A stretch of DNA of 33,751 bases from Ruminococcus sp. (lineage in GTDB: Bacteria; Bacillota; Clostridia; Oscillospirales; Ruminococcaceae). The stretch spans positions 1 through 33,751 of the forward strand of contig JAJQGV010000089.1 of the NCBI GenBank assembly GCA_021200215.1, read 5' to 3'. Within the stretch, counting starts at the first letter, position 1. Every line of letters begins with the position of its first letter. Below, one piece after another: positions 588 to 29,706 of this stretch. Position numbers and translations under genes: made by a program. The notes below the pieces were generated by a model. The model saw only the letters and a list, made by a program, of their open reading frames with translations, did no database searches and was not told where the DNA came from.

Positions 588-663
588 GCATTTGATTTTT
601 TGTATATCTTCTAAGACCTAACGATATACCCATCAAATGCACGATTAACTACTCGGTAGTAGT
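588..663 (-). promoter_or_regulatory. Structured leader of pnuC with terminator-like hairpin
   Basis: In the pnuC transcript, GCATTTGAT (640-632) pairs with ATCAAATGC (596-588). Inside it GTATATC (629-623) pairs with GATATAC (608-602), leaving a 14-base apical loop and an asymmetric A-rich internal loop. A run of T follows immediately and runs into the GGAGG ribosome site, so the outer hairpin looks like an intrinsic terminator or a site-masking structure. A second perfect 6-bp hairpin (648-653 with 658-663) lies just upstream. PnuC genes are known targets of NAD-type riboswitches. I cannot match this leader to a named class from memory. Confidence 0.5.
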
Positions 664-29470: not shown

Positions 29471-29477
29471 ATATCTT

Positions 29478-29660
29478 AGATAGAGGTGCGATAGAGATAA
29501 GTATTCTATGCTAAGAACAATATCGAGTTCGTTAAGATGTTAGGTATAGAGGAAAGGCAATATCGCCGAAATGCTAAAATGTATCGATATGGTTTTAGCG
29601 TTGGGTACAGACTTAATAGGTTTGTAACTGTCATCATGGTTATGATGGAGAGCTATCGGC
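29478..29660 (+). promoter_or_regulatory. Lysine riboswitch (L box)
   Basis: Conserved L-box blocks occur in order: AGAGGTGCG near the start, AGAGGAAAGGC and CGCCGAAATGC in the middle, GTTGGGTACAGACTTAAT with CTGTCATCATGG..., and GGAGAGCTATC closing helix P1. Lysine binding should favour the terminator before asd, shutting off asd, dapA and dapB. Confidence 0.95.
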
Positions 29661-29706
29661 ATATAATCTTTTTTGTATGTCAATATCTTTTATTATAACT
29701 CATGAT

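Follow-up and report, generated by a model that had tools for sequence, protein, structure and literature searches.

The window, i.e., the whole 33,751-nt stretch of Ruminococcus sp. DNA analysed here, holds at its start a pnuC gene, and the structured leader RNA ahead of this gene is the subject of the present work. Both lie on the minus strand, so the leader reads from high to low numbers; window coordinates are used throughout (Table 1). NCBIfam and Pfam both assign the encoded protein to PnuC above their cut-offs, and the one relative with a solved structure is 4QTN, the nicotinamide riboside transporter of Neisseria mucosa. The leader is flanked by its own predicted promoter and by pnuC; the neighbouring open reading frame (ORF) on the far side, from 733, points away. 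The promoter is near-consensus, although shuffled regions still yield 1.8 weaker sites each, so it stands as a prediction only.

Table 1. Features of the pnuC leader and gene, in window coordinates
Feature	Position	Strand	Basis
Predicted promoter: TTGACT 717-712, 17-nt spacer, TATAAT 694-689 preceded by TG	717-689	minus	11 of 12 consensus letters
P1 hairpin, perfect, AACTACT-ACCG-AGTAGTT: 664-658 with 653-647, loop 657-654 (ACCG)	664-647	minus	fold; covarying stem in 42 leaders
Linker joining P1 to P2	646-641	minus	pairing calculation compared with relatives
P2/terminator hairpin: outer stem 640-632 with 596-588 (9 bp), inner stem 629-623 with 608-602 (7 bp)	640-588	minus	fold; covariation
P2 apical loop, 14 bases, GTTAGGTCTTAGAA, nearly invariant	622-609	minus	alignment of leaders
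Terminator U-tract, seven T, conserved in relatives	584-578	minus	sequence
Ribosome-binding site GGAGG, immediately 3' of the U-tract, 10 bases ahead of ATG 562	577-573	minus	sequence
pnuC, first 187 codons; the gene runs past the contig start	562-1	minus	TIGR01528 above cut-off; PF04973, E 3.4e-24; 4QTN, E 3e-7

The segment 664-578 folds with -22.8 kcal/mol, against -11.7 (standard deviation 2.6) for shuffled sequences (z = -4.25, with none of 200 shuffles as good), the P2 hairpin alone gives -16.0 kcal/mol, and GGAGG is left unpaired in the predicted fold. A fold on the plus strand was set aside as the mirror of the real one, gene and U-tract both being on the minus strand, while a simple terminator scan passed over P2, whose loop exceeds the length which that scan permits. 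The first-pass annotation of this DNA had described a nested stem with a 14-base apical loop, a run of T flowing into GGAGG and a second perfect hairpin upstream, and all three are present, as P2, as the U-tract with the ribosome-binding site and as P1, respectively; its picture of a pnuC leader with a terminator abutting the ribosome site also holds, as P2 and the U-tract precede GGAGG.

In a DNA search of 299 genomes of the family (Ruminococcaceae), the P2 loop was found exactly conserved ahead of pnuC in several genera, and the extracted leaders have in common the CTGCCACCGGGTAG hairpin and the loop GTTAGGTCTTWGAA. When 42 leaders were aligned, 96.6% of the cells of the proposed structure pair and 18 of its 25 pairs change on both sides; neither value was reached in any of 500 shuffles, and sliding the partners destroys the pairing. 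Across many families the loop and P1 letters are nearly invariant and the stems variable. Conservation across genera confirms the leader structure as real and removes doubt on this point. Absence of covariation among pnuC leaders had been named beforehand as the outcome that would speak against a structured RNA; the covariation is strong, and the structured RNA is not refuted.

The two hairpins meet at their loops, where ACC (657-655) of P1 pairs with GGU (618-616) of P2. All 159 distinct leaders examined preserve this contact; its A-U pair is replaced by G-C in five of them and by G-U in two. In the guanidine-IV RNA of Clostridium botulinum (C. botulinum), the pairs A29-U72 and C30-G71 were mutated (PMC11611296), and our A657-U616 and C656-G617 correspond to these, with similar spacing (41 and 39 bases here). 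The earlier suggestion that the upstream hairpin might be part of an aptamer gains support in this way, since the P1 loop contacts the P2 loop and the P1 stem covaries. At two loci (L075 and L076) with the G-U form of the contact instead of A-U, a guanidine-IV-like RNA stands ahead of an ORF (MDTFFYKEPYEENGKTVLEVNLFPDKYCNFNCIFCPVSRK...) whose product, with its CxxxCxxC-like motif, may be a radical SAM protein.

Guanidine-IV RNAs are known as two hairpins with a kissing pseudoknot, in which a terminator is the second hairpin, acting as an ON switch (PMC7736828), and the defining features tested fit this class (two hairpins, loop-loop pseudoknot, Rho-independent terminator as the second hairpin, and gene set). 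Shared with the published RNAs (PMC7736828, PMC11611296) are the ACC/GGU kissing hairpins, the terminator hairpin, conserved letters around the contact and genes such as sugE, MATE and PnuC, whereas P1 differs, reading ACTACT-ACCG-AGTAGT in the window and CTGCC-ACCG-GGTAG in the published form. In the L. lactis RNA, mutating G66, U67 and G72 abolished binding (PMC7736828); these may correspond to 617, 616 and 611 of the loop, with which their letters and spacing agree.

A covariance model was built from the 42 pnuC leaders; the leader of the window, being one of these seeds, scores 75 bits (E 3.8e-17) in its own genome. Run against 399 genomes from the phylum, the model gave matches in 23, and the genes behind these matches include pnuC, MATE, sugE/SMR, DUF1989 and PNPOx/Nim-like genes, to which a pattern scan adds GNAT-like ones. 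This gene set agrees with that of guanidine-IV and so supports the class identity; at four loci (L068, L071, L073 and L085), the RNA precedes PNPOx genes related to nitroimidazole reductases (Nim). The covariance model found no second copy of the RNA in the window's genome, nor was an SMR exporter found in that genome, and there is no model match upstream of an annotated sugE of Paraclostridium bifermentans. No Rfam family matches the leader, which means nothing here because canonical relatives get no Rfam match either (the Rfam copy used is apparently without a guanidine-IV model).

On these grounds we consider the pnuC leader a well-supported further member of a known riboswitch class, ahead of a gene type already reported for it: a guanidine-IV riboswitch (GGAM-1/mepA motif), probably acting as a transcriptional ON switch, with a rough probability of 0.9. 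Its ligand and switch direction we infer, guanidine binding and ON switching having been measured in other members (PMC7736828). Lenkeit et al. list PnuC among the guanidine-IV genes and propose that such PnuC proteins export guanidine (PMC7736828).

Several points weigh against this reading. Elsewhere, PnuC proteins import nicotinamide riboside, and one RNA-linked pnuC (L023) is followed, 52 bases on, by a probable nadE (NAD synthetase; NAD, nicotinamide adenine dinucleotide), an arrangement seen at no other locus. The L. lactis mutant position G62 is without a certain place on the loop, as loop position 2 is U in nearly all leaders. The likeness to validated RNAs is drawn from published positions and spacing, and the binding and transcription measurements known to us come from members not linked to pnuC.

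If the leader works as other members do, P2 and the U-tract would form when the ligand is absent, and RNA polymerase would stop ahead of pnuC. Guanidinium would bind where the P1 loop (ACC) meets the 14-base P2 loop (GGU), and the kissing complex would then keep the outer P2 stem (640-632 with 596-588) from closing, so that transcription enters pnuC and a PnuC-family membrane protein is made whose most likely role is the export of guanidinium or of a related compound. For this organism, we infer the guanidinium response, the prevented closure of the outer stem and guanidinium as the PnuC substrate. As the U-tract overlaps the ribosome site, terminated transcripts would end just ahead of it; an extra translational effect of this overlap is possible, and no evidence in this analysis calls for one. 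The pnuC of the window shifts from presumed NAD salvage to a probable guanidine response.

The RNA also appears to divide the PnuC family. In a tree built for the order (Oscillospirales) with 72 distinct PnuC proteins, the 53 nearest to that of the window form one group, 49 of them with the RNA upstream, compared with 0 of the 19 others, and the RNA label requires 4 changes on the tree against about 20 for shuffled labels. With long deep branches and an unsettled bootstrap, the tree does not fix exactly where the group is rooted. Several genomes (e.g., G034, G068, G135 and G776) hold one PnuC of each kind. Four members of the marked clade (L021, L022, L231 and L250) are without a significant model match upstream, the RNA being lost, replaced or too diverged. 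No Rfam riboswitch was found near the PnuCs outside the marked group, and no consistent operon partner of pnuC emerged, an ORF of at least 90 codons lying within 60 bases in 25 of 104 cases under a crude ORF definition. The association of the RNA with one clade suggests for that clade a substrate other than nicotinamide riboside. That one PnuC clade of this order stands almost always under guanidine-IV control yields a testable prediction of the transporter substrate.

A second element is seen in most pnuC leaders: the P1-P2 linker (AAUGC, for instance) is able to form a hairpin with the terminator's 5' arm (GCAUU), and this pairing would exclude the terminator (L005, L006, L009, L013, L046 and others). 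At least four linker:arm pairs are possible in 89 of 117 distinct pnuC leaders; in 300 rounds of shuffled linkers, the number of such leaders averaged 30.6 and never exceeded 44. Because the leaders share ancestry, these figures should not be read as probabilities, and for some leaders the stems picked by the automatic procedure are imperfect. Linker pairing is not in excess in MATE leaders (5 of 20, with 4.4 expected) or in sugE leaders (0 of 4). The three strands involved covary at several positions in a table made only of leaders already having the hairpin. It is likely that in these relatives the linker hairpin is an antiterminator which sequesters the 5' arm of the terminator. Most pnuC-type relatives differ from published guanidine-IV RNAs in this addition, and the window is without a stable form of it: its linker pairs with the terminator arm by only -0.3 kcal/mol, a value equalled by 26 of 100 shuffles, and its leader either depends solely on the kissing complex or no longer carries the linker element.

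A 2025 review calls the guanidine-IV architecture unconventional, as aptamer and platform lack the classic overlap. The linker hairpin suggests one concrete way in which the kissing complex may block termination, a matter left open by Lenkeit et al. (PMC7736828). None of the guanidine-IV papers compared here describes it, and priority is not established. To hypothesize, the linker hairpin may give the pnuC branch the conventional expression platform believed to be missing from the class, with the kissing aptamer deciding whether antiterminator or terminator forms, and the same branch may define a PnuC clade that handles guanidinium and not nicotinamide riboside; we hold this combined proposal tentatively, at somewhat less than even odds. 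Two findings go beyond the guanidine-IV papers compared here and are worth following up: the RNA marks one clade of PnuC proteins, and most pnuC-type leaders have the linker hairpin.

The same observations could be turned towards another ligand. The leader might have the guanidine-IV fold in a variant form responsive to the substrate of its PnuC clade, e.g., nicotinamide riboside or a guanidine derivative. A change of ligand within the fold seems to have happened in the Gd4v motif, which has two kissing hairpins and a terminator in the same arrangement (PMC9788692). PnuC proteins are known for nicotinamide riboside, the RNA marks one clade of them, and, at loop position 612, U and A both occur in pnuC leaders whereas A predominates in those of MATE genes. 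However, the remaining loop and P1 letters are identical in pnuC, MATE and sugE leaders; the 14-base loop is without an internal stem in the window and in all 42 leaders, unlike Gd4v; and NAD-gene context is absent save for the one nadE. A changed ligand is improbable, and guanidine-IV proper remains our reading. Gd4v is further marked by a D1 position other than G and by transaminase genes; no transaminase is among the classified downstream genes here.

A sensor of NAD, whether NAD-I, NAD-II or a new NAD class, was the first-pass proposal, drawn from the position ahead of pnuC, and NAD-II does occur as a pseudoknot-holding pnuC leader in Streptococcus (PMC10085692, PMC8632094). We regard it as very unlikely: Rfam gives no match, the same RNA also precedes sugE and MATE genes, and NAD-II differs in fold and letters and acts by hiding the ribosome site, not by terminating transcription. 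Judged by its core letters and A5 strand, NAD-II was rejected, as the fit to the sequences printed in PMC10085692 is no better than that of shuffles; a pseudoknot with the ribosome-binding site was likewise rejected, as the pseudoknot here joins the P1 and P2 loops and GGAGG is unpaired. Nor does the idea of a new class find support, the tested features fitting guanidine-IV. Just as implausible is an ordinary terminator or attenuator that senses no ligand, which a strong hairpin followed by a U-tract would suggest but which would need neither a conserved 14-base loop nor a kissing partner; we reject it on the kissing contact and on loop and P1 letters that stay nearly invariant across families though the stems vary, and its place after its own predicted promoter, with the ORF from 733 pointing away, speaks against it as well.

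Elsewhere in the window, a lysine riboswitch (RF00168, 113.9 bits) lies on the plus strand at 29473-29663, and the genes behind it, from 29762, look like lysine-pathway genes by sequence (aspartate-semialdehyde dehydrogenase, dapA and dapB). A short run of ATTAATAATTAATA repeats is present on the plus strand at 1991-2025, between an ORF ending at 1995 and an ORF from 2043.
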